Source: Chloropicon primus
Taxonomy: Eukaryota > Chlorophyta > Chloropicophyceae > Chloropicales > Chloropicaceae
DNA length: 64,000 bases
Assembly: GCA_023205875.1 (NCBI GenBank)
Contig: CP060771.1
Span: 186,001-250,000, forward strand
Direction: 5' to 3'
Shown here: positions 99 to 61,950 of the stretch, piece by piece
How positions within the stretch are numbered: the first letter of the stretch is position 1
Layout: every line of letters starts with the position of its first letter
The notes under the pieces: model-generated
What the model was told of the DNA's origin: nothing
The model's database searches: none
Seen by the model: the letters and a program-made list of their open reading frames with translations, nothing else
Program-made: the position numbers and the translations under genes

Positions 99-304
99 GT
101 GAGTTTGAGACACGAATTCGAGGACGAGGGCGACGCGCGTAACGGAAGTAACGTCCGTGGACGGAATCTTCGCTTCCTCCTCTTTCGAAAGACCCTCTCT
201 GTGGAAAGATTGGGTCACCAAAAAGAAAATGAAAAAAAAAAACTAAAACGTTTGTTTTTCATGCTTTTTCATGGTTTTGCCATGCCTCTCTCTGTCTCTC
301 TCAG
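99..304 (+). repeat. Leader intron with introner-like unit
   Basis: The 5' leader intron of the first gene begins GTGAGTTTG and ends TCTCTCAG (206 bp). The family core lies at about 178-215 and reads CTTTCGAAAGACCCTC. A T-rich tract precedes the acceptor. Confidence 0.7.
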
Positions 305-344
305 TGCGAAGAAGAAGAGAAGCGCGAGGCCGAGGTCGAGGAAG

Positions 345-1011
345 ATGATCAGCACCACGGTGGCACGCCCGAGGACGCGCCACCTCGGCAGCAGCGTGAG
401 GTCGAAGAGGTTCCAGCTGCAGCAGCTTCATGGCAGAAGGGAGAGGCCTCTCCATCATCATCAGCAACAACAACGACGGTGCTTGGTCGAAGCGAGGAGC
501 AGTAAGCAAGGTTCGGGAGGTTTCTGGTCCGGTGTCCTCGTCGGTGGCACCGTGTTTGGCGTCCTTGGCTTCCTCTTTGCTCCACAGGTGTCCAGAGCTT
601 TGCTGAACAGCGAAAGGATGAAGAAGCTCTTGGGAGAAGGGAACGAGAACCTCGAGGTGAGTGAGAGTGTCGGAGAGAGGATCTAGCTCCCTTTTCCTTG
701 TTGATGCGTTGGGTGCTCGCTTGCTTGTGTTTCTGGCTGGCAAGCGGGCAAGAACAAGCAACAAACGAGAAGAAAGTGGCACGAACGAGAGTGCTCTTTC
801 CCTCAACCATGCACACACACATACACGCGCGCGCTGACACTCGGTGGCCTCTCTCATTGCGCGTGGTTCGATCTCCCTGCCTTTTCCTTTTCAGGTGACG
901 CGCGATATGCTCAACGACAAGATAAGCGAGCTGAACAGCGCAATCGATGGGGTTTCCCAGCAGCTGCAGAGCAGGACGGCCAATAAGGAGAGCCAGGTCG
1001 AGAGCTTGTAA
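345..1011 (+). CDS. Plastid inner-membrane protein, At1g42960-like
   Basis: Two coding exons, 345-656 and 895-1011, join in phase 0 to give 142 aa; the coding intron 657-894 is GT-AG. The N-terminal ~65 residues are rich in R, H, Q and S and look like a transit peptide. A glycine-rich membrane segment follows (GVLVGGTVFGVLGFLFAPQ), then a helix containing LNDKISELNSAID. That order, membrane segment with FAPQ then LNDKI-LNSAID, is the pattern of the plant chloroplast inner-envelope protein At1g42960 and its algal relatives, which have no known biochemical role. The ATG at 345 is the first in frame after the leader intron. The family call rests on motif memory and no search was run. Confidence 0.72.
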
Positions 1012-1396
1012 CCAAGTGTGAGTGGTTGTGTAAATCTAGCTTTTTGGGGGGCGAAAAAAAAAGACCCAACTTGTTATCTACTTGCCAAACTGAAGCGCGG
1101 AAAGCAGACGAGAGGAGGTCTCCAGCAGCACCGCCTCTTCCAGGTTCTCCTTGACCCTTTCGCTCTACGGGCGACGGGCGCAGCTATGGCAGGGTGGTGG
1201 CGCGCCAGGGAAGCGTGGCGGGGAGGTTAAAACCCCCTTTCGAAATTGTCTGTCCTGAAAAGAAAACGTTTCTCTATTTGTTTAAAAGGTGGAAGGGAGG
1301 TTAAAAAACCCACAGACGTGCTCCAGGTCCTACATTTCCCTGCTCCCCCGGCGGAGTGCGCCTCAAACGCTCGCCCCTCTTCCTCGTGGTCCTCGC
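1012..1396. other. Convergent 3' intergenic stretch
   Basis: This 385-bp gap separates two tail-to-tail genes. A possible small RNA gene was looked for in 1090-1230 and none could be supported. It presumably holds both 3' UTRs. Confidence 0.5.
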
Positions 1397-1801: not shown

Positions 1802-1843
1802 GATTGCTATTCACTCGGTGACTTTTGCAAATTCAAAACTTCA

Positions 1844-2176
1844 CTGCAAAGGCAAACAGCTTCGTCAGTCACCTCAAGAACGAATCAAAAGAAACAAACA
1901 AACCAGCAGACAGAAAGAAGGTGAAGCGGATGGGATGATCTCCGTCATCCATCGACCTCCTCCCCCTGCATCATCATCATCACCAACACCACCATCAACA
2001 ATGGGGATCAAGACAGAGAGAGAGAGAGACCGGGACCACAAAAGTTCTCGGGAACCACTTGGACCAAGCGAGGGTTCTTTCGAAAGCCCTGGAGATGAAG
2101 CTTCATTTGGCGGTGTTCTCTCCACCTCCTCTTCCCCTTCACGCTCCTCTCTTCACGCTCGAAGCGTCTTCCTTAC
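1844..2176 (-). repeat. H2A.X leader intron with introner-like unit
   Basis: On the minus strand a GTAAGG donor lies at 2176 and a TTTGCAG acceptor at about 1844 (333 bp; the acceptor is my best choice). The core at 2063-2086 is in the gene's orientation. Plus-strand CAT/CAC and GA runs lie nearby. Confidence 0.6.
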
Positions 2177-2230
2177 CTCCTCGATCGACGCCGCGTGTGC
2201 TCCATCCACTGAAGCGGATTTCATTCGAAT

Positions 2231-2241: not shown

Positions 2242-2852
2242 AGATGGAGGGCATCGTGCACAAAGGTTGGCGGTGGCGGAGCGAGAGAGAGAGAGGGAAC
2301 AAGAATAGAACCCATCATCATCATCATCATCATCATCATCCCGAGCGAGAGGAGAGGGAGCAAGGGAGCAAGAATCTGGCGCTGATCAAGGTGCTGCTTT
2401 CCACCTCTATGGTTTACGGAGTTTCGTCTTCGTAAGAGTCTTATGTCGGTGACCCACCCAACCACCTGGTGGTGATGCACTTCACACTGATGCACTTCTG
2501 CTCATGCTCACGAGTCTAAAAGGAACTGTGTTTGCTTGCACCTGCCCTCCACTTGAGCGATCAAGGACGTTGTCTCCGCACGAAGCTCTCTCTCTCTCGT
2601 CCTGGCCCTGCTGGCGGGGGTTCGTCCTGATGATCAATGGCCTTCTTTCCCGGTTACCCCACCAAGCGAGGGTTCTTTGGAAAGAGCGAGAAGAATGCGA
2701 ATTCGCTGTCCTTCGACCTCCCACCATTCCCCTCCTCCCTCGCCATCATCACCCCCATCCTCCTCCTCACCTCCTCACCTCCTCACTTTGGTCTCTTGAT
2801 CCATAAGAATTTTTTTTTCCCTCATCCACCGTGGGGGTCGCACAAGAACGAG
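2242..2852. promoter_or_regulatory. Divergent H2A.X / BBD upstream region
   Basis: This holds a (CAT)n run at about 2313-2340 and an extra minus-oriented introner-like core at 2662-2688. A possible minus-strand donor series (GTGAGGAGG repeats) lies near 2770-2790. The core may belong to a second H2A.X leader intron. No coding region was seen. Confidence 0.45.
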
Positions 2853-3085
2853 GTAAGACCTTTGCGACGGGGCGGACGACGAGGGCGGCGCGTGAGGCGA
2901 ATAGAGATCCAAGCAGGAGCGGTCTTCATCCTCTGGTCTTTCCTTGGATACCTCCCTCGAAAGTTTTGGCGCCGAAATGACGATGAAAGAGACTGTGAAG
3001 CTGAAACGCTTTTTTTTGTTTTTGTCTTTGGTTTCCCATCCAAGTTTGCCTCGCCTCGTTCTCGTAACGGACGCTCTCTTGACAG
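2853..3085 (+). repeat. BBD leader intron with introner-like unit
   Basis: GTAAGACC donor at 2853 and CAG acceptor near 3083-3085 (233 bp; acceptor inferred). The core at 2936-2995 includes TTTTGGCGCC and ATGACGATGAAAGAGACTG, almost identical to the copies at 17310 and 17510. A poly-T tract follows. Confidence 0.65.
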
Positions 3086-6066: not shown

Positions 6067-6245
6067 CTTCAGTGTGCAACCAAACCAAAGGAAACAGCAG
6101 CTTGTTTTAGTCCTAACTCCGTCACCAGAGCATCGTTTGTTTCAAGCGAGGAATCTTTCGAAAGCTTGCAAGATGGTGCGTCCATCCATACCCCACTACA
6201 TTGCCTCCCTTTTCGTCTTGAACCCTTGCATCATCGATAACTTAC
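6067..6245 (-). repeat. Leader intron with introner-like unit
   Basis: Minus strand: GTAAGTT donor at 6245, acceptor near 6067 (uncertain). The core at 6142-6165 is in the orientation of the coiled-coil gene to the left. Total is about 179 bp, the typical unit length. Confidence 0.6.
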
Positions 6246-6634
6246 CTCCCTCCCCCCTTGTGACAGTTTTGTCCTTCCCTTGGGATCAGAGCACCTCAGA
6301 AAAAAAAGGAGCTTTCGACGGCGGAGAGAGAGAGAGAGAGAGAGAGAGAGGGAAACGCAGAGCAAGGGCGGGAAGGGACGTCGGAAGAGGAGGGAGAGAG
6401 TCGTGCAGTCGAAAGGATCATCTTATCCTCTTTCGAACAAGCCGTCGCACGAAAGAAACGACGCAGTGGGCGAGGATTTGAAGCGAGGAAGGGACTCAGT
6501 CACTCGACAGGAGGGAGAGAGAGAGGAGGAGGAGGAGTGCCAGTGCTTCGTTTTTGGAGAAAGGATAGGAATCCTCCCTGTCGGTTATACCGGTTGGTTT
6601 GTAACGGACGCGCGGGGAAGCGTTACGGGTCGCG
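6246..6634 (+). promoter_or_regulatory. ZPR1 promoter and leader
   Basis: A (GA)n run lies at about 6325-6350, and a plus-oriented introner-like core (CCTCTTTCGAACAAGCCGTCGCACG) at 6427-6460. I could not place a confident donor and acceptor around this copy. Confidence 0.5.
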
Positions 6635-8324: not shown

Positions 8325-10644
8325 ATGCAAGCTCCCGGATTGAGAAAGAAGACCACAAAGGTAAGGCTTGTGAGGCCGAGTGGAAGAGAGGATTGAGACG
8401 AGAGCAAGGAACACCAATTGATTCCTCATCTCTCGAGCTTTCGAAAGAGCCCTCACTTGATGCGAGAGACGTCGTGGTGAGGTTATGAGACACTAAATCA
8501 ACAGTGTGTTTTGTCCTGTTTTGGGTTTGGCAGGCCACAGGCGCCACGAGGACGGGCCTGGCCTCCAAGGAAACGAAGAAGCCCGGTGCTGCAAACCTTG
8601 CCGCTGGCTTGTCTCTCAACATGAGGTCAGTAGACGCAACTCCATCATCCCACACACGCGTTGTCCAACAGATTGCATCATCACCCAAGTTGGTGTTGGT
8701 GAGCAAGATGAAGATGATTTGATGATGAATGTTGATGTCACCACGATGTTGGCGGGACTTTCTCCTCCCCTGGAGGTGCAGATCCCTCAGCGGTGATCTA
8801 TATTTGCCAAAGGTGCCATCTTTGTGCCGACCTTTGGCCGTTACTAACCAATCAATAACGCTTTTCTGTTGTGTGTCTGTGTGTGTCTGTGGAACAGTGT
8901 GAAGGGAACCTCTCCTGTGCCGAAGAAGACGAGTGCAAGCAAGTCTACGACGAGCAAGGCTTCGACATCGTTGACTAAGAAGCGGACGACGACGAGTACC
9001 CAGTCTGGTTCAAGCACCAGAGCGGCTGGATCCAAGGCGAAGGCCGGTACCGGTCTGAAGAAGGGGACTGGGCTGAAGAAGAAGGTGGCGAAGAAGGGGC
9101 CAACTGCGGAGGAGTTGGAGCTGCAGAAGAAGCAGAATGAGGCGGCCTTGGTCATCCAGAGCAGCTTCAAGAGCTTCAAGGTGAAGAAGGAGGAGAAGAT
9201 TGCGAGGGAGAAGCGCGAGCAGATGGAGAGGGACATGGAGGAGCTGAGGAAGCAGGCTTGGTTGGCGGAGATTGAGCGGCAGCGGAAGATCGATGCGGAG
9301 CGGCGGAAGAAGATGATGGAGGAGGCGAAGAGGCGCAAGGAGGAGGTCAGCCTGAGGAAGAAGCTCCTGGAGATGGCCTACGACGGAGAGACTGATGAGT
9401 TGGAGAAGACTTGGTCCAGGGCCAGAGAGGTTTTCAAGGGCGATGCATGCGTGGAAGTCGCGGACGGCCACGGCACGACCTTGCTCTCCGAGGCCTCGGC
9501 TGGGGGCCAGACGGAGTGCGTCAAGTGGCTCGTCGAGAAGGGTGCCCACCCAAACAGCCTCGGGGAGTTCGGCAGGACCCCCATCTGGCGTGCATGCTTC
9601 TTGGGCCACGCGGATTGCGTCCGGGAGTTGCTGGAGAGCGGCGGTGACCCGAGGCTCGCTTCAGAGTCTGGGGAGGTGGCGAAGAACGTGGCGAGCACGG
9701 ACGAGATCAAGGCGATCTTGGAGGAGTGGGACGAGGCCAAGACCGACGACCTGATCGCCAAGTTCGAGAAGAGGATGGAGGAGAAGGCCTTGGAGGACCA
9801 GAAGCAGAAGGAGGAGATGATGGAGGGCCTCGGTCGTGACGTGGAGACCGCCCAGATCGAGAACGACCAGATGCAAAAGCTTCTGAGAAACGCCCACCAG
9901 GAGCTGGAGAAGAGAATCTTCGAGTACGACACTTGCGTGGGGGAGGGCAAGCCCCAGACACTGCTTGACGCGGCGCTGACCGCAGTCAAGGAGGCGGAGG
10001 GCAACCTGGAGCAGGCCAAGACCAAGGCCAACGTGGCGAGGGAGACGTTGCAGATGTGCAAGTTGACCCTGAGGGAGAAGGAGCACGAGATGTCCGGCCA
10101 GGAGGGAGCAGGAGGCGATGGGGAGGAGGAGGTGGGCATCTACGTGGAGATGAAGGACTTGGACGACGTCCTGATCAAGGACGTGGGGGACAAGGTCAAG
10201 TCAAGCGGCAGGGCCGTCTGCTGCATCGACATCTCCAAGCAGGCCTCCGTCTTCCTCCGGTACCTGGACACGAACTACGTCAACTGCCTGTCGAGGTCCC
10301 ACATGGACGCGGACAGGCTGAGGCGGTCCATCGTGGGCTCGATCCGGTACGGCAAGCCCCTGATCCTGGACCTCATGGACGTGGACGTGTGGGAGTCCGT
10401 TTGCTTCGATCTGGAGCTCATCAAGAAGGGCCTGGTCGCCATGCTCCTGGACCGCTCGATCCTCCAGGAGGAGAACTACATGTCCCTCGTCAAGGAGTCG
10501 GACGGGGAGGAGTACCACGTCACCAAGTTCCAGGACGACCGGATCGACAAGTTCAAGGTCATCCTCCTGACCTCCGAGAGGTTCCCCAGCAAGGAGATCA
10601 CCGACCAGACCTACTGCGTCAGGGTCGTCATCAAGGGCAGCTAA
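8325..10644 (+). CDS. IQ motif and ankyrin repeat protein, IQANK1-like
   Basis: Three exons, 8325-8360, 8534-8625 and 8898-10644, give 624 aa. After a K/S/T-rich start comes an IQ motif (ALVIQSSFKSFKVKK), a long charged coiled coil, and ankyrin repeats (TTLLSEASAGGQTECVKWLV, TPIWRACFLGHADCVRELL). A second coiled coil follows, then a C-terminal ~170-residue domain with GKPLILDLMDVDVWE and ILLTSERFP that recalls AAA regions of dynein heavy chains. This order matches IQANK1, found mainly in ciliated eukaryotes. The frame is open upstream of 8325, so an earlier start (for example ATG 8205) is possible. The first intron is a 173-bp introner-like unit. Confidence 0.78.
8361..8533 (+). repeat. Introner-like unit as a coding intron (173 bp)
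   Basis: GTAAGG donor at 8361, GGCAG acceptor ending 8533, between codons (phase 0) of the IQ-ankyrin gene. Core at 8436-8462 (GAGCTTTCGAAAGAGCCCTC), then a T-rich run. Its 173 bp equals the lengths at 17400-17572 and 48832-49004. Confidence 0.75.
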
Positions 10645-11892: not shown

Positions 11893-13545
11893 CTATCGTT
11901 GTTGTAATTTATTGTAGACGTACTTTTTGAACTGGAGCCGGAGGTCGGCGCCGAGGAGATCCTCGACGCTCGCGTCGAACTGAACTTTGACCTTCCCCGA
12001 CTTTCCAAAGGCGCTGACGAGGGTGCCCGGCGCGACGAGGCCCCCCGCGGCCTCTCCGTCGTCGTCCTCGCCCTCCCCCCCGGCCGGGAAGACCTTGTAC
12101 CCGATGAACTTGGAGATGTCCGAGTCCCTGCCGAAGAAGCCGCTCACGATGCACGACTTGCCCTCCGTCCCCTTTTCGATCCTTTCCAGCTTGCCCGCCC
12201 TGTTCTTCACCTTGAACACCCTGAGCCGATTGAGGTACTCCTGGTGCTTCTCCGCGTTCCTCTCCTTCTTCACCGCGTCGTAAGTGTCCAGGGAAGGGGC
12301 GTCAACGATGTTTCCGTGGAACGCCAAGCGGCATTGCTTGGTGTGGACGTCCAGGTCCAGCCTGCTGGCGATGAAAGCAGTGTTCGTCGGGCAAGTCACG
12401 GGCTTTTCGAACACGATGAGGACGTAGGGTGGCAGGGATCCGGGACGAGCGTCGCTCACGAGCTCGGGAAGGTACTCGTAGTCCCTGCCGTAGTCGAACC
12501 CTTGGTCCGAGCCGCCCCCCTCCTCCCCGCTGCCCTCTGGCGCGAAGAAGGTGGCCTCCGCGAGGGCGGTGATGTGCCCGAGGGTGACGTGGATCTTGCA
12601 CCCGCTCGGGATGCTCCCCTTGTAGAACGCCACCCTCCGTGCCCTCGCCACAAACGTGTCGAAAGTTCTCACGGGCGCCGCCTCCTTGGACGCCTCGGGC
12701 GCCAGGTCGCACAAGTAGTCCCTCTCGATCAACTTGGGGTCGAGCTGCGTGGTGCAGATGGCGACCCTCTCGCCGGACGACGCCATCTCGACTGGCTGCT
12801 TGAAGACCTGCATGCTCTTCACCTTGCGCGTCAGGCCAAGCCTCGGAATGGAGAGGTTCTGGTTCACCCTCATCGCTCCCTGGAGGACGGTCCCAGTGAG
12901 GACGGTGCCCTGGCCCTTGATCGAGAAGCAGTGGTCCACCGCGTACACCAGCGGCTCCGACTCTCCGCCCTGCCCCGCGGCTTGGCCCCTCCCCTCCACC
13001 ACCCCCTGCGGCGTCGCCTGAGCCAGCTTCTCCGCGACCCCCTCGACGCCGGTGCCCTGCTTGGCGGACGCCGTCACCACCTCACAGTCCCGGAATTTGG
13101 TGCGGGACAACGCCTTGCCGATGATCTTCATCAGTCGCTCCACCTTCTTTTCCCTCTCGGATTCGGGCAGGAGGTCCACCTTGTTCAGCACGACCACCAT
13201 TGAGCTGCAGGGGCTCACCTGGGCGAGCACGAGGCACTCCGCCGTCTGCGTCTGGATCCCTTTCGTGCAATCGATGACGAGAAGGAAGACGTCGATGATC
13301 TGGGTGGCTCCTATGATCGTCCTGATGAGGCTGGCGTGACCCGGGCAGTCCACCAGCGTGAACCTCACCCCGCTCTCGGACACGAAGGAGGAGAAACCAA
13401 GGTCCAGCGTGATGCCTCTCTCCTTGCTTTGAGGGTGTCGGTCGAGGGCGCACGTGCTCAGGCAAGTCGAAAGGGCGCCGACCAGAGACGTCTTCCCGCT
13501 GTCGACGTGGCCCATCACGCCCACGTTGACGTTGACGCTCGCCAT
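11893..13545 (-). CDS. EEFSEC: Selenocysteine-specific elongation factor
   Basis: A 551-aa GTPase. Motifs: G1 GHVDSGKTS, G2 region with ERGITLDLGFSSF, G3 DCPGH, G4 NKVD, then EF-Tu-like beta domains 2 and 3 and the C-terminal domain IV specific to SelB/EEFSEC. Residues HPQSKERGITLDLGF and the short HCFSIKGQGTVLTGT are typical of eukaryotic EEFSEC. It delivers Sec-tRNA to ribosomes at UGA codons through the SECIS complex. The open frame continues upstream to a non-ATG codon; the first ATG is 13545, just after a TTTTGCAG that could be a leader acceptor. No selenoprotein or SECIS element was recognised in this window. Confidence 0.95.
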   Translation of the reverse strand: MASVNVNVGVMGHVDSGKTSLVGALSTCLSTCALDRHPQSKERGITLDLGFSSFVSESGVRFTLVDCPGHASLIRTIIGATQIIDVFLLVIDCTKGIQTQTAECLVLAQVSPCSSMVVVLNKVDLLPESEREKKVERLMKIIGKALSRTKFRDCEVVTASAKQGTGVEGVAEKLAQATPQGVVEGRGQAAGQGGESEPLVYAVDHCFSIKGQGTVLTGTVLQGAMRVNQNLSIPRLGLTRKVKSMQVFKQPVEMASSGERVAICTTQLDPKLIERDYLCDLAPEASKEAAPVRTFDTFVARARRVAFYKGSIPSGCKIHVTLGHITALAEATFFAPEGSGEEGGGSDQGFDYGRDYEYLPELVSDARPGSLPPYVLIVFEKPVTCPTNTAFIASRLDLDVHTKQCRLAFHGNIVDAPSLDTYDAVKKERNAEKHQEYLNRLRVFKVKNRAGKLERIEKGTEGKSCIVSGFFGRDSDISKFIGYKVFPAGGEGEDDDGEAAGGLVAPGTLVSAFGKSGKVKVQFDASVEDLLGADLRLQFKKYVYNKLQQR

Positions 13546-13873
13546 CCCTCCACCACCTCCTGCAAAACGGGACAACGAGGCAGGGAGAGACTTCGCGTGT
13601 GAGGTTGTTCAATCCTCACCCCAAAAAACCGTCGTCGCTCGTTTCCGAGTGAGGGGTCAAAAACGGAAGGGAAAGGGTCGAGGGTTTTTAGTGTGGCCAC
13701 CGAATCGGCACTGCCCACGCCAACCCCTCTTCCGCACACATTGCTCACCTTGTGGAACAAGTCCCTCTATCCCCCCCTCTCCCTCTCCTCTCCTCTCTTC
13801 CGGCAAATCTCAGTCTTCGGGACCTTTGCTTTGCTGGATTGACCACAGTTGCAGACAGGGAGGAGCCAACCAA
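13546..13873 (-). promoter_or_regulatory. EEFSEC promoter region
   Basis: A possible very short leader intron (about 13560-13619, donor GTGAGG, acceptor TTGCAG) precedes the ATG. Otherwise no features were recognised up to the 3' end of the next minus-strand gene. Confidence 0.4.
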
Positions 13874-16903: not shown

Positions 16904-17197
16904 CGTCTATTCCCTCCGATTCCCAAAGTATGCACACGGTCCTCCCCTTGAGATGGATGTCTCCATCCCTCATGGGAAGGAACAGAGGACTAAAACGTCA
17001 ACCAAACCCTTCAAACAATAGCTCATTCGAAAGATATCGACAAGAGGAACACTCTAGATACCTCCAATGACCCCAAAACCTTCGCAAGAGGCGACGAAAC
17101 CTTCACCAACTTCCAAAACTCCTCCAAGTTCTCCTCCCTCTCATTATAACCAGATTCAAATACGCTCCTCTCTCCTCTCTCTTTGTTCTCCAGGCAG
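16904..17197. promoter_or_regulatory. Divergent promoter, sirtuin / E-Syt-like
   Basis: About 290 bp separate the sirtuin ATG from the first donor of the E-Syt-like leader. No strong motif was recognised. Confidence 0.45.
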
Positions 17198-17572
17198 GTA
17201 AGGAAAGTTTTCGGCGCCAAGTGCGCGACGAGGATGGAGGTTTGGGTGAAGGAGAGCGACGCGGTGGGAACCTTCGTGGTCTTCTCTTTCTAACGAGCCT
17301 TCGCTTGAAACATTTGGCGCCCGAATGACGATGAAAGAGACTGAAACCGATTGCTTTTTCCTTTTCTCTCGTGCTTGGTGGTGGTGCCCAGTGACACGGG
17401 TAAGGCTTTTCGACGTCGAAGGGGGTGACTGAGACGAAAGAGGTGTGGCGTGACTTCTCCTCCTTCTCGTGGTCTTTCGATAGAGCGTTCGCTCGAAACA
17501 TTTGGCCCCCGAATGACGATGAAAGAGACTGAAACGCTTTTCTTTTCTTTTTTTTTTTGGTTTTCCCTGCAG
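17198..17572 (+). repeat. Tandem pair of introner-like leader introns
   Basis: Unit 1 is 17198-17391 (GTAAGG...CCCAG, 194 bp; core 17282-17330). Unit 2 is 17400-17572 (GTAAGG...TGCAG, 173 bp; core 17471-17525). Only 8 bases (TGACACGG) separate them. Both share CATTTGG(C/G), GAATGACGATGAAAGAGAC and TGAAAC before the T-rich tract. Unit 1 carries TTTGGCGC at 17313-17320. They may be spliced as two introns with an 8-base exon, or removed as one. Confidence 0.75.
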
Positions 17573-29177: not shown

Positions 29178-29663
29178 GTGAGTTGGAACGCGATCGGGAC
29201 GAGTAAGGCGACGACGGAGGGGAAGGGGAGGTCCACAGATCGAATATTCGTCTCGTCCTCGTTCGAAAGAATCCTCCGTCGAGTGATTTGGTGGTCGAGT
29301 GAGGCTGAAACGACGAATGGGTTTGCTTCGTTCCTCATGGGGGATCCAGGAGGTACCAGGGGGAGTTAGGAGCGATCGGGGCGAGGGAATTGAGGGAAAC
29401 GGGAAGGAGGAGGCGCGTAGGTCGATACGTCGCGTGGATATCTTTCGAAAGAGACCTCTGTGGAGTGTTTTGAAGCTCTGCTGGTGGAGGATTTGTTGAA
29501 ACTCGACTCGAGTGCGCTTGCTTCTTGTTCTTTGCCGTGGGATCGCAGACCGAGGTTGGTTAGACTGGGGGTGCGGGGAGGTTGCTTGCTTCGGAATCGT
29601 CGCGGATCCCCTCTTTCGAAATCGACGACGTCGTGGCGAGGTTTTGGAAAGACTGAAGCGCAA

Positions 29664-34084: not shown

Positions 34085-34138
<54 letters not shown>

Positions 34139-35285
34139 GAGCACCAAAGGCCAAAGCTTTTCTTTCTTCTTCCTTTGCAGCCAAGTGGGTCCCTTGTCAA
34201 TGCCTCGCGGTCGAGGGAGGCCACCTTCAGACGCTTGCTTGGCCGTGCTGGGTGATCCGCTTAGTCCATCATCCCTCCCCTCGTTGCTCCTGCCGTTCTC
34301 AACCTGCACCAAAGGTAAGCAGGTAGGTAGGTAGAGAGAGGCAACAGAGGACACCTTCATCAGTGGATACAATCCTCCCAAGATAACGACCTTTGTCGAG
34401 CGAGAGCTCTTTGGAAAGAGGAAGAGACGACTATTCCACTCGTGCCTCAACCCTTTGCCTCTGACTCTCGCCTCTGCCTTCAATCCTACGCAGACTTACC
34501 TTGAATCGATGCTAGTCCGCCTCCAGTCCTCTAGAGGACACGCTAATCCAAGAGCAAGAGAGCAGAGAGCGAGAGAGCAAGAGAGCAAGAGAGCAAGAGA
34601 GCAAGATCTTTCCTCTCAGAGAGAGAGAGAGGAGGAAGGCTTCAAGTGTTCACAGTGTCCCACCTTGCTTTTCATTATCGCAATTAGGATGAAGGACAAC
34701 GAAGAAGAGAAGAAGAAGAAGAAGAAGAAGAAGAAGGAAAAGGTTTTGAAGGAAAGGACGTGTTCACCTTCGTTTCTTCCAAACGAAAACGAACGACGAA
34801 CGACGAACGACGAACGCGTCCTTTCCTTCATTCTTCTTTCTTTGTCTCTCTGTTGTTCTTGCTCTCACAGTCTCAGTTTTGCGAAGTTCATCCAAAGATT
34901 TCAAAACCTTATCCTGAAACTGAACACCTTATCGTAAAATGTGAGGTTAAGATTGCGTTTCGCATGGTAAGGCGAGGAGAAAGGCAGAAAGGTGGCAACT
35001 TTGGCAACACAAGACAGGACAAAGGGATCCAAGGGAGCCAGCTTGCCTCTTGCTTGTCCAAGCGTCGATAGCCTCGATTGCCTTCGTCCTTGCATCAGTT
35101 GGAATCGTAGAGGTATATAGTTTCCTTGAACTTATTGATAAAGGTTTTTAGTTGGACACACACACACACACACAAGCACACACATAAGCGGCGAGTTGGG
35201 TTGGGTTGGGGTTGGGCGGCTGAGTTTATAATTTTTGGAGTCACGGCGTGGACCTGGCTCGAAGGAAGACTCAAGTGGCGCCAGG
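33887..35285. promoter_or_regulatory. Divergent region, sugar transporter / NHE exchanger
   Basis: The longest gene-free stretch (1.4 kb). It holds a (CT)n run at 34093-34135, a leftward introner-like leader intron (about 34311-34501), an AGAGCA run at 34560-34605, a GAA run at 34705-34740, CGAACGA repeats at 34787-34818, and (CA)n at 35157-35185. Open frames here are short and low-complexity, and I do not call a gene. Confidence 0.5.
34311..34501 (-). repeat. Leader intron with introner-like unit
   Basis: Minus strand: GTAAGTC donor at 34501 and a TGCAG acceptor near 34309-34311 (about 191 bp). Core at 34391-34424 in the transporter's orientation. Confidence 0.65.
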
Positions 35286-37260: not shown

Positions 37261-37764
37261 AAATATTTCGTTCCCTCATTGTATTCTATTTTCATTTATG
37301 AATCTAAACCTCGAAGAAGCCTTTCGTTCCTCCACGCCAATCCTTGCAAGCGAGGGCTCTTTGGACAGAGCAAGAGACAATGCATCCATCCATCAATACC
37401 CCACCTCTTCCCGTCTCCTCCTCCTCCTCGGCATCCACTATCACCATCACTGCCCGCCCCTCATCATCATCATCATCCACTATCCACCAGCACCAGCACC
37501 ATCAGTGCCCTTCCTCCACGCCAATCCTTGCAAGCGAGGGCTCTTTGGAAAGAGCGAGAGACAATGCATCCATCCATCAATACCCCTCTTCCCCTCTCCT
37601 CCTCCTCCTCGGCATCCACCATCACCATCACTGCCCGTCCTCCTCCTCCTGGAGAGCCCTTCTCGCTATTTTCAAAATTGAATTGCCGCCGAGGAGAGCG
37701 AGAACCTCAGAGGAGGGACGAGGAGCAAGGCGAACGAGGGCGAGAGAAGCAGAGTTGGAGGGGG
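37261..37764 (-). repeat. Tandem duplication of an antisense introner-like unit
   Basis: Two direct copies with a 184-bp period: about 37327-37510 and 37511-37694. The core regions (37341-37375 and 37525-37560) differ by two bases in about 75. They read CTCTTTCCAAAGAGCCCTCGCTTG on the minus strand, against both flanking plus-strand genes. The only clear case of opposite orientation plus high identity, so likely young. The rest of the stretch is the prefoldin promoter. Confidence 0.65.
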
Positions 37765-38602: not shown

Positions 38603-38775
38603 GAAAGTCAGAGTCTGGCAAAGAAGGATAATCAATAAATCCCCCAAAGAGAAAGAAAAGCTTTCTGGCGTTCCTCAGTATTCTATATTTACAAGCCCAT
38701 AGACGCAGATTCTCAGCCCCGCGCTCCTGTGAAGCTCCGGGGCACGTGATCCGTTCGGTTCCCTCCACCTTTGCT

Positions 38776-39700: not shown

Positions 39701-39711
39701 CCCTCCTTGAT

Positions 39712-39831
39712 CTGGAAACCCAAAACCACGGAGTGATCTCTCTCTCTCTCTCTCTCTCTCTCTCACGCGCGCGCGCGAGCGTCCAAATGCTTCGAGTGAG
39801 GGGTCCACGGAAAGGTCGTGAGACGATCTAC
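39712..39831 (-). repeat. NSE2 leader intron with short introner-like unit
   Basis: Minus strand: AAG|GTAGATC donor at 39831, TTTCCAG acceptor at 39712 (120 bp). The core at 39781-39820 reads CCTTTCCGTGGACCCCTCACTCGAAGCATTTGG in pieces aligned to the family. A short version of the unit. Confidence 0.6.
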
Positions 39832-40222
39832 CTTGCTCGACCCCTTCCCCTCTCCTGATCGTCCTCCGCTTGGCCTCAAAGCTCGGCCTCTCCTCTCCTC
39901 TCCCCTTCTCTCTCTCTCTCTCTCGATAATGGAGGATGGATGGCACAAGGACACGAACGGATGACGAGAAGGATGCCGGGGGGAGGCCAGGGGGAGGGGA
40001 GGTTGGTGTTACCACCGGCTTCCTCGTCTCCTGATCTTTCCAAAGAGCCCTCACTTGGCAAGAATGACGCTGGGATGGGGAGGATGTTAACGCGCGAGGC
40101 GAGGGAGGATCACAGGAAGGACAAGCTTGTCTTCCTCCACACACGACACGAGTGCATTATAATTTTTTATTGCCAGCTTTGGTTGGTTAGTTGGTTGCAC
40201 AGCAGGTCCCTCTTCAGGTGGA
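39832..40222. other. NSE2 upstream region with opposite-strand unit
   Basis: Holds a (CT)n run at 39908-39924 and a plus-oriented introner-like core at 40033-40065, antisense to both neighbours. No gene was recognised. Confidence 0.45.
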
Positions 40223-41457: not shown

Positions 41458-42124
41458 GACTCTTTGCCCCCTCTTCGACTCTTTCTCTCTCTCTGTGAAC
41501 GACTTTACCCTTCTCTGTCCTCAAAACTGCTTCTTGTAAACACCATGCCTCCTCAATCAATGCTCCAGGCAACCAGGGGGCAGCCTCCTAGGCTAGCAAT
41601 GCACTTGATGGACTCAAACAGGACGCTCCCGGTTGTCAAATCCCTCGAGTTTGGTACCAAACAAAAGCTCGCGAGACGTATCTTCGTCTTGCGCAAGTCT
41701 TTGGGCTTGGTTCGCGAAGCACTCTTCTCGGAGCGTCGTCAAAAGTGGAAGCCTCCTCCTTTCCTCCTGGATCTTGGATTTTGTTGGATTTGTGGGACCA
41801 AATCGTACACAGCCGTCCAGCCCTCAAGTGAGTGAGTGAGGTGGGCGCAATCAAACTGAAAGTTTAGGACGAGTGCGAAGGAAGGTTGGAAAGAGAGAGA
41901 CGCACCAGTCGACGCTACGTCTCAAGATCTTTCCATTGGTACCAAACTTGACAAGGTTTGGCGTCCGGGTTGGTTGGTGGAGAAGACTTGGAGGGAAGCC
42001 AGTCCAGGGAGTGGACAGAAGGGTGAAGGGCAAGGGTTAAAGCGAAGCCTGGGGTCGTTTATTGGCACGGCACTAGGTTTCTTTTCCTCTCATCGCTTGT
42101 TGTGAAATACCTCCTGCATCTGCC
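41458..42124. promoter_or_regulatory. Divergent promoter, two sugar transporters, with inverted introner-like units
   Basis: A leftward core lies at about 41640-41695 and a rightward core at 41926-41970. Both are variants carrying TTGGTACCAAAC in place of the usual centre. The rightward leader intron may run 41828-42076 (GTGAGTGAG to CACTAG). No coding region was seen. Confidence 0.5.
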
Positions 42125-43144
42125 ATGACGGCTTCCAATCCAAGCTTGAAGACGAGCACTCTGGTAGTTGCGGGTGTGCTTACCCTTGTGACAAGTTCTC
42201 AAGGGATCTTCACCACGGCTTCCAAGGTGGACGGCAAGTATGAATACAATTTCGGAACGATTGTGCTGCTCGCCGAGATGTTCAAGCTTTTCTTCTCCTT
42301 GTACAACTTGAGGAAGGAGCTTCAACTGAAGCCAGAGTCGACCCAGATGACCAAAGATTGGAAAACAGTGTCCCTGTTTCTTGTGCCTTCAGCGATATAC
42401 TTGGCTCAGAACAACGTGCAGTTCCTTTTCCTAAAGTATGTGGACCCTTCATCTTACCAGGTCCTTGGCAACTTGAAGATAGCATCGACTGGGATCCTGT
42501 TCAGGCTTTTCCTCAAGAGGAAGCTCTCGACCCTCAAGTGGGTCGCCTTGCTTCTCTTGCTCATAGGTGCGACAACCAGTCAGCTAGACACTTGCGGATC
42601 AAAGGTACTTTCGGCTCCGATTCAGGGCTACTTGTTCGGCCTCCTGAGTGCCTCCCTTTCCGGGTTCGCTGCGGTGTACACGGAGTACATCATGAAGAAG
42701 AACAACGACTCGCTGTATTGGCAGAACGCTCAGTTGTACTTCTTCGGCGTGTGCTTCAACCTGATAAACTTGACCTATCAAGACATTCACGCGGGGTTCC
42801 ACAACGGGTTCTGGCTCATGACGCCGTTCCATGGTTACAACAAGTGGACTTACTTGGTGGTCTGCACCTTGTCCTCGTCGGGTCTTCTCGTCTCTTGGAT
42901 CATGAAGTACGCCGATAGCATCGTCAAGGTCTACGCCACTTCGATGGCTATGCTGGTGACAATGGTCGTCTCGATCTTGCTGTTCGGGCAGACGCCTACA
43001 TTGCAGTTGTTCCTCGGCATCCTCACCGCGACGGCCTCACTTCAGATGTACTATATGTCACAAGACGACCTGTTCATGCCTCCTTCGAAGGACCAGATGG
43101 CCCTCACTGGAGTGATCGTCGACTCGAGCAAAGCAGAAAAGTAA
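42125..43144 (+). CDS. Nucleotide-sugar transporter (UDP-GlcNAc/CMP-sialate type, SLC35A-like), third copy
   Basis: A 339-aa single exon with ten membrane segments. Motifs AEMFKLFFSL, PSAIYLAQNNVQFLFLKYVDPSSYQVLGNLKI (in pieces), GFAAVYTEYIMKKN, and the end region SMAMLVTMVVSILLFGQTPT define the SLC35A/plant ROCK1-type family. VYTEYIMK and LGNLKI are conserved transport residues. It would import UDP-GlcNAc or a like sugar into ER or Golgi; the C terminus SSKAEK ends in a lysine-rich tail that could retain it in the ER. Single-exon coding unlike the two-exon copies nearby. Confidence 0.92.
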   Translation: MTASNPSLKTSTLVVAGVLTLVTSSQGIFTTASKVDGKYEYNFGTIVLLAEMFKLFFSLYNLRKELQLKPESTQMTKDWKTVSLFLVPSAIYLAQNNVQFLFLKYVDPSSYQVLGNLKIASTGILFRLFLKRKLSTLKWVALLLLLIGATTSQLDTCGSKVLSAPIQGYLFGLLSASLSGFAAVYTEYIMKKNNDSLYWQNAQLYFFGVCFNLINLTYQDIHAGFHNGFWLMTPFHGYNKWTYLVVCTLSSSGLLVSWIMKYADSIVKVYATSMAMLVTMVVSILLFGQTPTLQLFLGILTATASLQMYYMSQDDLFMPPSKDQMALTGVIVDSSKAEK

Positions 43145-44614: not shown

Positions 44615-45396
44615 ACTCCTCGGGCTGCTTCGAAGGGAAGACAAAACTTTCCTTCGACAAACGTTCCAACCAATCAGCTGAATGGTGACCCACGCAATGA
44701 GACAACGACACACGCGATCCCTTCCCTTCCCCCTCGCTTCCCTCGTCCTCCGCCTCACACGGAGGCTAGGCTGCTGGCTGCTGGCTGCCGAAGATAAGAT
44801 AAATGATCCCACGTGGGAGACTCCCTCGCTCAATCCGAAACCAAATGCTGCAAGTAAGAGGTCTTTGGAAAGAGGAAGACTTGATCTATCCCCTGAATGG
44901 CTCTCCTCCTCCTTCGGAACTCGCCTTACTCCTCAACCCCTTCGTTTGGTGTCAATGCTCGACCCAAGCTCCGCGAACAAGCCTCCATCCGTTTTTCTTG
45001 TGGCTGAGGGAGAGGGAGGTGGGCCAAAGGAGAGAGGGCGCCTTGTGAAGGTAATGAAGGTGGCGGTGGGGGGTGAATGCGGCGTGGGATTGGCAAGGTG
45101 AGAAAAGATCGCGAAAGATTGTCTCATGGGCTTTCGTTTGGTCGGTCGCTTGACCTGTTTGGTGGCCTGAGTCATCGGGAAACTCCGTCAGGAGGACGAG
45201 GTCGCTGTTTCATCCCCAGCCCAAAGGGGAGGAAGGGTGGTAGTGGGCGGTGCGTGGTCCACGAGGACACGACAGGGGGTAGGTGAGACTGGCTCGCTTT
45301 GTCATTACAGAAGCTGAAGCTATTGATATTAGCGAAAGCGGGCCTGCTCCCGAGTCGTCGTCCCCTTTTGCATCCAAATAACCGTCCACGTCCAAA
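44615..45396. promoter_or_regulatory. TrpRS promoter and 3' region of small basic gene
   Basis: Holds a leftward introner-like core at 44846-44880 in a probable leader intron (about 44785-44929, GTAAGGCG donor). The rest has no gene I can support. Confidence 0.5.
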
Positions 45397-45858: not shown

Positions 45859-46296
45859 CTTTCACAACTCAATCAAACAATCCAATCCAATCAATCCGAT
45901 GGCAATGCAATGCAACTCTCTCTCTCTCTCTCCTTCTCGTCCGAAGGAATCCGATGCCGCGGAATTCGCTTGAGGTGACGACTCCAGACACCTTGACCCT
46001 TCCCGTCGCCCGTTACGAAACTCCTAACGCTTGATCCCGGAGAGCGAGTGACACGAACCTCTTCCCTCCCTGAATCCTCCTCCTCCTCCTGTGCCAAGGT
46101 CTTTCCCCTTGGGATTCCTTCGTCTTTCCTGAGCCAAATCGACCAAACGACACGTCGTTGGAAAGATCTCGAGATGTTATACCGCTTTACGTCCTCTCCC
46201 TCGTCTTCTCCCCTCGCTCTCTCGCTCCCACTCCGTTTCTCTGTCCCTCAGTCCTCTCCCCGGCGCCGCCACCAAAGGGCAAACCTTCTGAGGGCG
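45859..46296. promoter_or_regulatory. Divergent promoter, small basic gene / FIP1
   Basis: A leftward introner-like copy (about 46130-46175; AGATCTTTCCAACGACG on the minus strand) lies in a probable leader intron near 46089-46190. The FIP1 leader follows. Confidence 0.5.
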
Positions 46297-48677: not shown

Positions 48678-48831
48678 ACATGTTTTTATTGCCTTGCTAA
48701 TGCTCCAACATTGAGCCAAGCCAAAGCCCGACGATCTTGATCCAAGATCTCGAGAATTTTATCCTCAGCCTTCGCATTTGAGGCTCTCATTGAAGCACGT
48801 TCGAGATGGCGACCACCTTGGCGTATTAAAG

Positions 48832-49004
48832 GTGAGTTCCGGCACGAAGGCGTGAAGTGAGGGGAGGGAGCGCGTCACGCGCCGACGCCTCGGACTCTCC
48901 TCTTTCGGAAGAGCTCTCGCTTGAAGGATTTGGCGAAGTGTGGAGGATTTGACGGACTGAAACGATACGAGTTTTTTTCGGTTTTTTTTTTCTTCTCCAT
49001 CCAG
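48832..49004 (+). repeat. PPR leader intron, introner-like unit (173 bp)
   Basis: GTGAGTTCC donor and ATCCAG acceptor ending 49004, 10 bases before the start codon. Core 48901-48965 (CTTTCGGAAGAGCTCTCGCTTGAAGGATTTGGCG in pieces), then long T runs. The textbook example of the family. Confidence 0.8.
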
Positions 49005-53440: not shown

Positions 53441-54007
53441 CGCTCGCCGGTCTGGAAGCCAAGCGTTTTTCTTGGAGAAGGGAGCGTTATGGAGGAAGGG
53501 GAGGGGAGGGGTGGACGAGGACAAGGACAAGGACGAGGACGGGAGGCAAGATCAAGCAAGATCAGGCAAGATTAGATGGAGTCATTGTCCCTTGCTCTTT
53601 CCATGTACCATCGATCGAGGGGAAGGGCACATACACACAGACACACACACACACACTCTTCTGTTGTCTGTCTTCTTCCCTTGGTGTCACCTCATCAAGA
53701 TGGATGGGAGGGTGGTGGAGGACGAGGACGGGAGGCAAGATCAAGCAAGATCAGGCAAGATTAGATGGAGTCATCGTCCCTTGCTCTTTCCATGTACCCA
53801 TCGATCGAGGGGAAGGGTGCACACACCACCTTTGTTTGTCTTCCCTTGGTCAGAGTGTCACTTACCTCATCAACATGGATGGAAGGGGAGGACTCAGAAG
53901 TTGGATGGCAAGAAGAGAGAGGGGTGTGTGCTGGGATGTTGAGAAAGTTATCATTTTATAAAAAGTGTTTGTTTTGGTTTGTTTTGTTTTAACGAAGGAC
54001 TGCTGCT
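53441..54007 (-). repeat. Tandem repeat in TPR-TTL leader, introner-like
   Basis: Two copies with a period of about 175-189 bp (GAGGACGGGAGGCAAGATC at 53535 and 53724; CTTGCTCTTTCCATGTACC at about 53590 and 53780). On the minus strand GATGAG|GTAAGT (53865) and GATGAG|GTGACA (53690) start the units and TTCCAG at 53452 could end the intron. The relation to the main family is weaker (GTCCCTTGCTCTTTCC). Confidence 0.55.
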
Positions 54008-59311: not shown

Positions 59312-61177
59312 CTACGACTCCACGACACCGGTGGACTCGTTGTGGCAGCCGTCCGTTTCTGAGATGTGGGACTGCACGCCACCCAAACCCACGCTGTCCG
59401 CTTTTTCTGGCTTGGTCTTGCCGGGAAGGTAGGGTCCGTCCATCCCCTCGTCCGCCGTGCCAGTCCTCATGGAAGAGGGCCTGGACGGGTCGCTCCTCGT
59501 TGGGTGCCTGAAGGGCCCCCTCTGGGGCCCGCACTTTTGAGCCTCCAGGCACTCGCAGCAGTGCTTGACCGACTTCCTCACTTGGTCCATGTTCACCACC
59601 CGGTGGGGGTAGGTGATGCCCATGTCGACCCCGGAGGCACGGAGGATCTTCGCCGGGGCCTTCCACGGCGTGTGGATAAACTTCGAAGGGACGCGGGCGA
59701 GCAGCGGGAGCCACTTCTTCACGTACTTGCCATCCGGGTCGAACCTCTTGCACTCCTCCTCGTAGTCCATGATGTAACTGAAGGGGGGGGCGTCGATCAT
59801 GCACCCGCTGAGGTACTGCCAGCCCAGGGCGTCGCACTCCAAGTCCGCGTCGATCAGGGTGTCCCAAAAGTACTTAAGCCCCCACTGCCACGGCAGGTTG
59901 AGGTACTTGACGAAAAAGTGGCCGACCAGGATCCTGAGCCTGTTGTGGCACCAGCCCGTCGACCACAGCTCCTGCATGCCGGCGTCGATGAGGGGGAAAC
60001 CGGTGCACCCCTGCTGCCAGCACTTGAAGAGGTCCTGGTCGTACTGCCAGGGCACGGCGCAGAGGTGCTCCAGCAAGGGCCTCTCGTGCGTGAAGGGGTT
60101 GTGGAAGAGGATGTACCTGGAGAACTCCCTGTAACCCAGCTGCTTGATGTACTTGTCGACCGACGCGATCTGCTGCTCGCTGTCCAGAGCAGTGCTCAGG
60201 CTCAGCTTCATCTTCTTCAGCACGAAGTAGAGGCTCGAGACGGAGATCTCGCCGTAGTGCATGTGGGGGGAGAGCCTGGAGGTGCAGTCCGAGTGGACCA
60301 TGGCCTTCTCCTGCTTGAAGAAAGCCAGCTTCTCGCACAGGAACTTGTTCCAGACCATGTGAGCCGAGTCCGAGCCGGGCATCCACTTCTCCTTGAGGTG
60401 CTCGCTCGTCGCGGCCTCCTCCTCGGTCATGATCGCCACCTCGTCGAGGCTCGCCCTGTTCCCCTTCACCTCGTCCGGGACCTTGGGCATAGCCACCGGG
60501 CAGGGCAGCGGCATGAAAGGCTCGTAGGGCATCTTGTTCACGATGTGCTCCCAGAACTTGTCGAAGGTGTTGAAGACCTGCCCCTTCTCGTCGTAGATCT
60601 CCCACGGCTCGTACATCAGGTCCGCGCCGAAGGACTCCACGTGGACGTTCAGCCCCTGCAGCAGGGTCCGGATCCCCTTGTCCCTCACCAGCGAGATGGG
60701 GTCGTACAGGTGGTTGAAGTAAACCGCCTGGATGTCGTTGTCCTTGACGAAGGGAACGATGCCCTCCTTGGTCGTGGGCGTCTTGAACAGGACGAGCCGA
60801 GACCCGAGCGCCTCCAACTTCCTCGACAGGGACTCCAACGACTGCGTCAGCCACCACCGGCTGCTCAGGCCCGGAGTGAACACGCCCTCCTCCTCCGGAG
60901 CCCAGATGAAAAGGGGGATCACCTCCCTCCCCGCACGGAGCGCTGCCATCAGCGCAGGGTTGTCCTCCAGCCTCAGGTCCCTCCTGAACCAGACCACAAC
61001 TCTCGAAAGCTTCCCGGCCTGCGTCACGCTCGACGGCCCCACCGCCTGGGGAAGAGGCTCCGCACTCTCCGTAGCCAACCTCTTCGCCGCCCTCTCGTCC
61101 CTCTCCGTCGCCATCTCACTCGACGACGTGTCCGTCGCTTGACGCTTCTGTGCTCCCTCTCTCTCCTCCATCATCAT
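59312..61177 (-). CDS. CRY: Plant-type cryptochrome
   Basis: A 621-aa single exon; three ATGs in a row open it. The photolyase-homology region begins RVVVWFRRDLRLEDNPAL (~59). The FAD region includes LSPHMHYGEISV, GYREFSRYILFHNPF, GFPLIDAGMQELWSTGW, and then WGLKYFWDTLIDADLECDALGWQYLSG in parts. LGWQYLSG with a Cys/non-Asp near the flavin and ITYPHRVV match plant CRY rather than CPD photolyase or CRY-DASH. A tail of ~110 residues (R/P/S/T-rich) follows. Blue-light signalling in the nucleus is expected. The 5' leader holds an introner-like core with TTTGGCGC. Confidence 0.93.
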   Translation of the reverse strand: MMMEEREGAQKRQATDTSSSEMATERDERAAKRLATESAEPLPQAVGPSSVTQAGKLSRVVVWFRRDLRLEDNPALMAALRAGREVIPLFIWAPEEEGVFTPGLSSRWWLTQSLESLSRKLEALGSRLVLFKTPTTKEGIVPFVKDNDIQAVYFNHLYDPISLVRDKGIRTLLQGLNVHVESFGADLMYEPWEIYDEKGQVFNTFDKFWEHIVNKMPYEPFMPLPCPVAMPKVPDEVKGNRASLDEVAIMTEEEAATSEHLKEKWMPGSDSAHMVWNKFLCEKLAFFKQEKAMVHSDCTSRLSPHMHYGEISVSSLYFVLKKMKLSLSTALDSEQQIASVDKYIKQLGYREFSRYILFHNPFTHERPLLEHLCAVPWQYDQDLFKCWQQGCTGFPLIDAGMQELWSTGWCHNRLRILVGHFFVKYLNLPWQWGLKYFWDTLIDADLECDALGWQYLSGCMIDAPPFSYIMDYEEECKRFDPDGKYVKKWLPLLARVPSKFIHTPWKAPAKILRASGVDMGITYPHRVVNMDQVRKSVKHCCECLEAQKCGPQRGPFRHPTRSDPSRPSSMRTGTADEGMDGPYLPGKTKPEKADSVGLGGVQSHISETDGCHNESTGVVES

Positions 61178-61424
61178 CCACTTCCACCTTGCTCAAACCT
61201 TGACGACGCCACCAAGCGCCAAACCGGGCAAACGAGGTATCGTTCGAAAGCTCGCGACGACACGCTTCGTTTGATCCCACCCTCGCCCCCTTTCGTCCAA
61301 GCCTCCGTCGTTCACAGCTCTCCAAAGCGAACGGACGCTCTTTCCCTTCGTGTTCACGGGCTCTTTGGGGCTTATCCACTCTGAGTGGGATTTTTTTAAT
61401 CACTCGAGGAGCCACTCGAGGAAG
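61178..61424. promoter_or_regulatory. Divergent promoter, cryptochrome / AMFR-like, with leftward unit
   Basis: A leftward introner-like core at 61214-61260 holds GCGCCAAA (TTTGGCGC on the minus strand, 61216-61223), an E2F-type motif. The rest is a short shared promoter. Confidence 0.5.
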
Positions 61425-61950
61425 GTGAGTTCGGGACCGGATTCATGGCGCCGGCGAGGGGAGTGAGGCCGAAGGAAGCGATTCGATCGAAAGCGTCGTC
61501 TCGAGAGCTTTCCGTCGAACCCTCAGTCGAAAGGAATGACGCCGGGATGGAGATTTGAGGCGGATGAACGCCTGAACTCGGTTCCTTTCGTCGAGCAAGG
61601 GCGGAGAGACAGACGTGTTTGAGTGACGAGGGAGTGGATTAAAGGGAAAGGGAGTGAAGAAGACGGAGGCTTCGTCTCTTTCTCTTTCGAAAGACCCGTC
61701 GCTTGAAAGGAGTGACGCCCTGTGGAGGATGTTATGTTCTGATGAAGTTTTTTTTTCCTTGGATGCACGACACGGACGCAGGTACTTGGTGAGGATTCTG
61801 TCGAGGAGGGAGACCGGTAAGGCGGCGAAGGGAAAGGTGATCGTGATCTTCATCTCACGATCTTTCCGTAGATCGGTCATTTGAAAGGAATGGCTTCGGT
61901 TTGAGGCAGAGGTGTCCTTGAAGAGAGGGATTGTTTTCTTGGGTCCAAGG
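61425..61950 (+). repeat. Triple tandem introner-like array in AMFR-like leader
   Basis: Donor GTGAGTTCG at 61425. Three cores at 61501-61545, 61681-61720 and 61860-61900 are spaced 176-178 bp. Inner GTACTTGG (61782, right after ACGCAG) and GTAAGGCGG (61817) could be inner donors. The last acceptor is probably TCCAAG near 61949. Exact splicing cannot be fixed by eye. Confidence 0.65.

Follow-up and report, generated by a model that had tools for sequence, protein, structure and literature searches.

What kind of unit is the short core sequence that recurs ahead of genes on both strands of a 64,000-nucleotide stretch of the Chloropicon primus assembly (C18:186001-250000, hereafter the window)? 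The initial annotation took the recurrences for introner-like elements concentrated in leader introns, with a conserved promoter-proximal intron as the alternative. We find that the family is real but was misread as introners, and that the reading which fits it best is an oriented promoter element that positions nucleosomes. More specifically, we consider it likely that the units are copies of a directional DNA element the size of one nucleosome, which fixes the nucleosomes on either side of promoters.

C. primus is described as a marine picoplanktonic green alga (PMC12301720), and Table 1 of that paper lists 8,683 genes for strain RCC138, with on average 0.54 introns in each gene and introns averaging 152 base pairs (bp) in length. 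The assembly totals 17,584,162 bases across 20 contigs, the longest of 1,855,637 and the shortest of 417,210 bases.

A dispersed family with a strict core

The exact 24-base core does not occur in the window; its best copy there has 1 mismatch, at 37531 on the minus strand. With up to 5 mismatches there are 15 sites, and with up to 6 there are 18, while the reversed core finds 0 and the means over 50 shuffled cores are 0.02 and 0.04, respectively. A profile trained on the 18 window copies, iterated and applied at E<0.001 to 288 kb (the window, a 10-kb tile from each of the 20 chromosomes, and eight loci picked by their cores) gave 77 matches, with 29 in the window, 34 in the tiles and 14 in the core-picked loci; the best match in reversed sequence had E=0.17. 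We also scored the 264 kb of window and tiles with a cross-validated matrix, fitted to one portion of the data and applied to the rest, at a threshold of 8. Thirty window elements score above 8, 28 of them above 10, and window and tiles together hold 65 elements above 8, with none in reversed sequence in either case. The roughly 25 recurrences first claimed for the window are thus borne out, at 28-30 elements; the count of 30 includes two with poor cores (5989-, score 9.3, and 41893-, score 9.1) that are left out of Table 1.

That the genome has a dispersed family of its own also holds, with 184 core sites at no more than 2 mismatches genome-wide and 0 in the reversed control. A stricter degenerate core finds 403 sites (control 0) and recovers 12 of the 65 unbiased elements, from which we extrapolate to about 2,200 copies in the genome, a rough figure given the small base of 12/65. 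The large chromosomes are poorer in elements: C1-C6 (8.86 Mb) hold 79 of the 403 strict cores and C7-C20 (8.72 Mb) hold 324, and strict back-to-back matches number 5 and 67, respectively.

Element coordinates are given here relative to the core C, and the predicted footprint runs from -78 to +69. The most informative columns are CTTTC, S (C or G), three variable bases, GA, CCTC.CTTG, TTTGGCG and GAGG, with a purine-rich block ahead; CTTTC and GA are near-invariant, and the core is both strict and directional. Among 2,589 pairs of copies from different promoters (73 elements), mean identity is 0.50 over -20..+45 and 0.37 over -65..-20, and falls to 0.30 over -110..-65 and 0.275-0.285 over +45..+135, the background level in both flanks. 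What is conserved is therefore not the 173-bp GT..AG unit. A palindrome was rejected as the conserved feature, since what is kept is CTTTC, S, GA and CCTC.CTTG, and so was an RNA hairpin formed from it, as the middle bases vary (AAA, GTG, TAT, ATT and others) and the stem is not kept in copies read by eye. No known RNA family reaches its gathering threshold in the window. A viral origin was also rejected, viral contigs having no exact 20-mer match to the element.

Placement and outward geometry

On a gene map built from codon usage, none of the 63 profile matches in the window and tiles lies in a coding segment, although 63% of the sampled positions are coding. The matrix elements occupy 20 of 31 divergent, 13 of 59 tandem and 0 of 34 convergent gaps between genes (58 of the 65 are within those gaps, the others at sequence ends or elsewhere), so the bias to gene starts over coding exons stands. 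The proposal that orientation follows the host gene survives in part. The downstream neighbour is on the same strand for 45 of 63 elements and the upstream neighbour on the opposite strand for 52 of 63, but 13 of the 63 lie between tandem genes and are directed away from the only adjoining gene start.

Absent from the initial annotation were an outward geometry and a spacing quantum of about 180 bp. Profile matches in the same direction are 176-189 bp (13 cases) or 354-381 bp (3) apart, those back to back are 222-304 bp (17), 419-453 bp (6) or 612-630 bp (3) apart, and no two face each other within 1,000 bp. For the 65 matrix elements the same-direction spacings are 173-188 bp (12), 352 and 354, and the divergent ones 222-295 bp (12), 419-453 bp (6) and 612, with no convergent pair. 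Random placement in the same gaps with strands kept yields on average 0.6 same-direction pairs at 170-192 bp, 1.4 back-to-back pairs at 220-305 bp and 6.3 facing pairs (maxima 4, 6 and 14), where 12, 13 and 0 are observed. The same-direction spacing of mostly 173-189 bp is that of a nucleosome repeat in general, as expected between copies of a nucleosome positioning sequence.

The geometry extends beyond these samples. Twenty new anchor regions, taken by core alone in list order, led to 9 extra elements, all of which fit; one (C9:284903, 180 bp) had been visible beforehand and 8 had not been seen. Their spacings are 180, 188 and 189 bp in the same direction and 238, 239, 251, 275, 283 and 287 bp back to back, with no facing pair. 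Genome-wide counts from gapped patterns, in which back-to-back pairs can be counted from both ends, give 102 same-direction pairs at 160-190 bp (near-identical tandem arrays included) against 15 at 191-221 bp, 72 back-to-back pairs at 237-267 bp against 11 at 175-205 bp, and a single facing pair at a gap of 236-266 bp; reversed controls are 0 for every pattern. The spacing is kept even by neighbouring copies whose resemblance is no greater than that between unrelated ones (618/795, 177 bp, and 353/165, 188 bp, at locus L018; 1321/1503, 182 bp, at L001), and back-to-back partners resemble each other as strangers do, at an identity of 0.51 compared with 0.50. The spacing rule is carried by old, diverged copies.

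A nucleosome-like rhythm

Nucleosome positioning sequences have a dinucleotide period of about 10 bp, with SS (GC/GG/CC/CG) and WW (AA/TT/TA/AT) in antiphase over about 147 bp. In our set of 109 elements, from the window, tiles, core-picked loci and new anchors, SS and WW rise and fall in antiphase, with a period close to 10.3 bp. When every element was moved randomly by up to 10 bp, none of 400 trials reached the observed SS or WW value in -110..-25 or -73..73, and over +50..+120 WW lies beyond every trial; there is no significant 10.3-bp signal in -200..-110 or 130..260. In sliding 41-bp windows (97 elements), every centre between -80 and +70 other than -10 and 0 exceeds the 99% level of the jitter trials, which puts the footprint at about 150 bp with some 20 bp of uncertainty per edge. 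In the left arm, columns that played no part in the search matrix also carry the rhythm (0/500 overall; p=0.02 among the new anchors), and the signal persists in 83 non-redundant elements without CTTTCCAAAG cores (0/1000 for both left arm and footprint), 63 of which show the expected left-arm phase singly. The antiphase that marks a positioning sequence is thus found, weaker in the right arm than in the left.

Tracts of A5 or T5 are most frequent at -160..-120, which is the middle of back-to-back pairs, and nearly absent over -100..+20, with a second peak, of T tracts, at +60..+80. From 1.36 at the core, the observed-to-expected ratio of CpG dinucleotides drops to 0.66 at +80 and 0.80 near +270/+280, so that the dips are about one nucleosome repeat apart. 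Methylated linkers are an unlikely cause of these dips if DNMT2 is the sole C5-methylase (see below).

Splice signals are confined to a minority

Introners of Micromonas and Aureococcus have reportedly been described by Huff et al. in 2016. The three 173-bp GT..AG units on which the initial annotation leaned are present as claimed (8361-8533, 17400-17572 and 48832-49004). The more general claim, of a GTRAG donor ahead of the core and a T-rich tract with CAG after it, holds for a minority only. Of the 109 elements, 24 carry GGTRAG at -100..-60 (among those of the window, 13 of 30), compared with 0 in antisense, 4 of 104 at the downstream position, and a mean of 7.7 and maximum of 16 when the stretch is base-shuffled; as the stretch is rich in purines, the antisense comparison makes the count look better than it is, and shuffling is the fairer control. 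For a looser donor, GTRNG in -105..-55, shuffled sequence gives a mean of 56, which the 43 of 109 elements that have it do not reach. A fair acceptor was seen in 8 of the 23 GGTRAG units examined, with lengths of 135-206 bp. These counts make leader introns about one nucleosome repeat long real candidates, in a minority of copies, while for most copies the sequence speaks against spliceosomal introns.

Among the 2,589 unrelated pairs, similarity does not run up to both splice borders as it does between introners. The exception is unit 8361-8533 and its partner, whose likeness starts 18 bp ahead of the donor and stops 14 bp short of the acceptor. This unit seems to lie inside the coding sequence of an ankyrin-repeat gene, 12 codons from its start (inferred ATG at 8325; exons 8325-8360, 8534-8625 and 8898-10644); the N-termini of P0001, P0002 and P0005, three of the 35 homologues listed, are not decisive on its splicing. 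In eight testable units the longest flank repeat averages 2.75, against 2.58 (sd 0.10) with swapped flanks, which is no clear sign of target-site duplication. Left-arm periodicity is found both with and without a splice donor.

Published introners are alike up to both splice borders, insert into linkers and are predicted to have lowered nucleosome occupancy (PMC9860276). Like the present family, they form dispersed, genome-specific families in marine algae that are tied to nucleosome spacing (Gozashti et al. 2022, PMC9860276), whereas here similarity stops short of the borders, most copies show no donor of the form sought, and the sequence rhythm resembles that of wrapped DNA. The main text of that paper does not mention Chloropicon, nor does the main text of PMC12301720 mention introners. 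Among the papers listed that pair Chloropicon with nucleosome or introner, or Chloropicon primus with intron, none is by its title about such an element.

How the copies have spread

Part of the family has a recent history. Unit 8361-8533 has one other near-full-length copy, at C3:409030 (82%, 159 of 173 bases), with unrelated flanks. The unit with core 2684 on the minus strand (2684-), which has a GAT-rich start (window 2626-2801, minus strand), has 19 further copies of 77-89% identity in 15 places; 16 of the 19 start at a common border (window 2626-2628), and the other end is ragged. When 12 of these copies were aligned with that of the window the flanks differed, and no terminal inverted repeats or target-site duplications, such as mark a miniature inverted-repeat transposon, were obvious by eye in the 13-copy alignment, on which no formal test was made. 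The stretch 2350-2625 of the window has a paralogue at C18:402561-402944 (91-98%) that ends where the element begins; we rejected it as a clean empty site, as it stops at the border and does not resume beyond the unit.

Tandem arrays of near-identical units, each one nucleosome long, are found at C16:318341-319369 (about 170 bp), C14:207068-207579 (about 167 bp), C18:415624-416428 (about 162 bp) and C13:443021-443564 (about 178 bp), and some close tandem copies are recent duplicates (4547/4726 at L018, 37368/37552 in the window, 1689/1865 at L027). The dispersed subfamily, the arrays and the intron copy together make it likely that at least some members of the family have moved or been duplicated. 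New copies may arise in two ways, when one unit is duplicated in tandem and when a unit disperses.

Proposed explanation and its rivals

We propose that each copy favours one nucleosome, with its dyad near the CTTTC..GA core. Paired copies would then flank a promoter gap of about 110 bp (258 minus 147), each directed outward, and beyond them every further nucleosome would have its own copy, about 180 bp from the last. Transcription would begin in the gap and proceed outward through the element, which in a minority of genes would thus come to be covered by a leader intron roughly as long as one nucleosome repeat. On this proposal nucleosomes would occupy the elements, and the array would set the accessibility of the promoter; the predicted wrapping rests on the geometry and the sequence rhythm. 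Histone preference alone needs no motif so fixed, which suggests that a protein reads the strict core. As for the alternative offered in the initial annotation, a promoter-proximal intron, it came closer than introners in that a promoter-proximal element is conserved, but what is conserved is a nucleosome-sized piece of DNA and not an intron.

A new introner family, that is, mobile GT..AG introns inserting in sense with a preference for leaders, strikes us as very improbable. It would account for the three 173-bp units, the excess of GGTRAG over shuffles, the near-full-length intron copy with unrelated flanks and the dispersed young subfamily. However, GGTRAG is missing from 85 of 109 elements and the looser donor is no commoner than in shuffled sequence, identity between unrelated copies is at background in the flanks, target-site duplication gives no clear signal, and the outward geometry holds for copies that are directed away from genes, with a left-arm rhythm irrespective of the donor; the lowered occupancy predicted for published introners (PMC9860276) also counts against it. 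We regard as unlikely, too, an oriented site for a large sequence-specific protein, such as a downstream promoter element or an insulator-like factor, with nucleosomes between the bound sites. The strict, directional core with its near-invariant CTTTC and GA, and the tight association with gene starts, would fit such a site, but a conserved stretch of about 110 bp together with a 147-bp nucleosome would exceed the 180-bp repeat, and an antiphase 10.3-bp signal over about 150 bp is typical of wrapped DNA. A variant in which the factor is bound on the nucleosome would merge into the positioning element proposed here. Somewhat less remote, though still not probable, is a nucleosome-sized mobile or satellite-like repeat that lands in promoter linkers and amplifies in tandem, the geometry being a by-product without function in the cell. 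The dispersed subfamily with its shared starting border and the arrays of near-identical units, with periods of 162-178 bp, speak for it; against it, neighbours as unlike as unrelated copies still keep 173-188 bp, the 65 elements include no facing pair, and the decay of the flanks to background while the core is kept suggests selection.

Several observations count against the positioning element that we favour. Natural nucleosome preferences are usually loose, so the strict core suggests a DNA-binding protein. The 10.3-bp period was picked after viewing a spectrum, SS alone is not significant over +50..+120 (p=0.165), beyond the search matrix the signal of the right arm is weak (p=0.02 over the whole set, 0.08 in new anchors, 0.11 in window and tiles), and the best symmetry axis, -8 (r=0.43), is barely above -13 and +6. 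The T-tract peak at +60..+80 comes mainly from donor-bearing elements and so may be a polypyrimidine tract and not a linker. The spacing has outliers, at 598, 1293 and 1330 bp (same direction) and 357 and 852 bp (back to back) in the profile set, and at 226 and 598 bp (same direction) and 36, 357, 535 and 852 bp (divergent) in the matrix set; at a looser score (97 matches, about 17 of them expected to be false) six facing pairs appear, at 308-739 bp. One of the 14 matches in core-picked loci is inside a coding segment (L001 1058). The young 2684- subfamily is scattered in the manner of a mobile repeat, and only 1 of its 6 copies with 410-460 bp of upstream sequence has a back-to-back partner (at 297 bp). 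Finally, 11 of 31 divergent gaps have no element and the large chromosomes are element-poor, so the system is not universal.

Elements in the window

The window's elements are listed in Table 1 with one example of a promoter centre, which sits between coding segments 59318-61183 (-) and 61983-63761 (+).

Table 1. Elements of the window with predicted footprints, and an example promoter centre (positions are those of the window)
Feature	Position	Strand	Remarks
Element, core 182	104..251	+	Score 32.9, GGTGAG donor; within candidate leader intron 99-304
Element, core 2086	2017..2164	-	Score 49.2, donor
Element, core 2684	2615..2762	-	Back-to-back with 2938+ (254 bp); young dispersed subfamily, shared border near 2626-2628
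Element, core 2938	2860..3007	+	Score 31.9, donor
Element, core 6164	6095..6242	-	Back-to-back with 6430+ (266 bp)
Element, core 6430	6352..6499	+	Score 55.7, without donor
Element, core 8438	8360..8507	+	Within candidate intron 8361-8533, ankyrin-repeat gene
Element, core 17033	16964..17111	-	Back-to-back with 17286+ (253 bp)
Element, core 17286	17208..17355	+	Run start
Element, core 17474	17396..17543	+	188 bp past 17286; within candidate intron 17400-17572
Element, core 29260	29182..29329	+	Run start
Element, core 29442	29364..29511	+	182 bp past 29260
Element, core 34418	34349..34496	-	Within candidate intron 34304-34499
Element, core 37368	37299..37446	-	184 bp from 37552
Element, core 37552	37483..37630	-	Without donor; directed away from adjoining gene start
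Element, core 39814	39745..39892	-	Back-to-back with 40036+ (222 bp)
Element, core 40036	39958..40105	+	Score 65.2
Element, core 41667	41598..41745	-	Back-to-back with 41929+ (262 bp)
Element, core 41929	41851..41998	+	Score 37.9
Element, core 44872	44803..44950	-	Back-to-back with 45131+ (259 bp)
Element, core 45131	45053..45200	+	Score 36.2
Element, core 46165	46096..46243	-	Score 44.8
Element, core 48902	48824..48971	+	Within candidate leader intron 48832-49004
Element, core 53786	53708..53855	+	Weaker profile match at 53597, 189 bp ahead
Element, core 61250	61181..61328	-	Back-to-back with 61508+ (258 bp)
Element, core 61508	61430..61577	+	First in run of three
Element, core 61684	61606..61753	+	176 bp past 61508
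Element, core 61862	61784..61931	+	178 bp past 61684
Example promoter centre, predicted nucleosome-depleted gap	61329..61429		Between pair 61250-/61508+; A5/T5 tracts peak at this offset set-wide

Elsewhere in the window, three nucleotide-sugar transporter genes lie near each other (32681-43144), and 11893-13608 (-) holds a gene for the eukaryotic selenocysteine-specific elongation factor.

Methylation context and significance

Huff and Zilberman are said to have reported in 2014 that DNMT5 carries out CG methylation of linkers in Mamiellophyceae. DNMT5 is described as present in that class (PMC10538959), and 5-methylcytosine as lying between nucleosomes in Micromonas and Ostreococcus (PMC12695648). 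The DNMT5 system likewise belongs to prasinophyte algae with compact genomes and nucleosomes ordered at genes. In the C. primus genome, however, we found no DNMT5; the one PF00145 match is closest to DNMT2/TRDMT1, although a very divergent methylase could escape such a search. With only a DNMT2-like methylase found, the ordering would be written in the sequence instead. A single MT-A70 match was also found (C4:1358754-1359170, L055), which would bear on adenine methylation near promoters.

In teleosts, promoter 6-mers are reported to prepattern nucleosomes in hypomethylated domains, and they too are promoter sequences that recur at about the nucleosome distance and predict nucleosome placement (Nakamura et al. 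2017, PMC5607494). As described there, those motifs are short and lie in linkers, in contrast to the one long, oriented, outward element seen here, apparently on the nucleosome. Nucleosome positioning sequences in general are loose statistical preferences, whereas the present copies form a repeated family that can be recognised as such, fixed in direction and with a strict core close to where the dyad is predicted. A bolder version of our proposal, which we put forward tentatively and think more likely wrong than right, is that C. primus has a dedicated, directional one-nucleosome cassette that specifies its individual promoter nucleosomes; a specific protein would recognise the cassette at the dyad, copying of it would extend arrays, and its sequence would take the part that linker methylation plays in prasinophyte relatives.

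There is a long debate over whether promoter nucleosomes are placed by DNA sequence or by trans-acting machinery, and here a readable, oriented motif predicts the positions of individual nucleosomes at many promoters. The element would offer a natural route to leader introns and mobile repeats of nucleosome length, and it may be a substitute for methylation-based phasing in an alga in which the only C5-methylase found is DNMT2-like.

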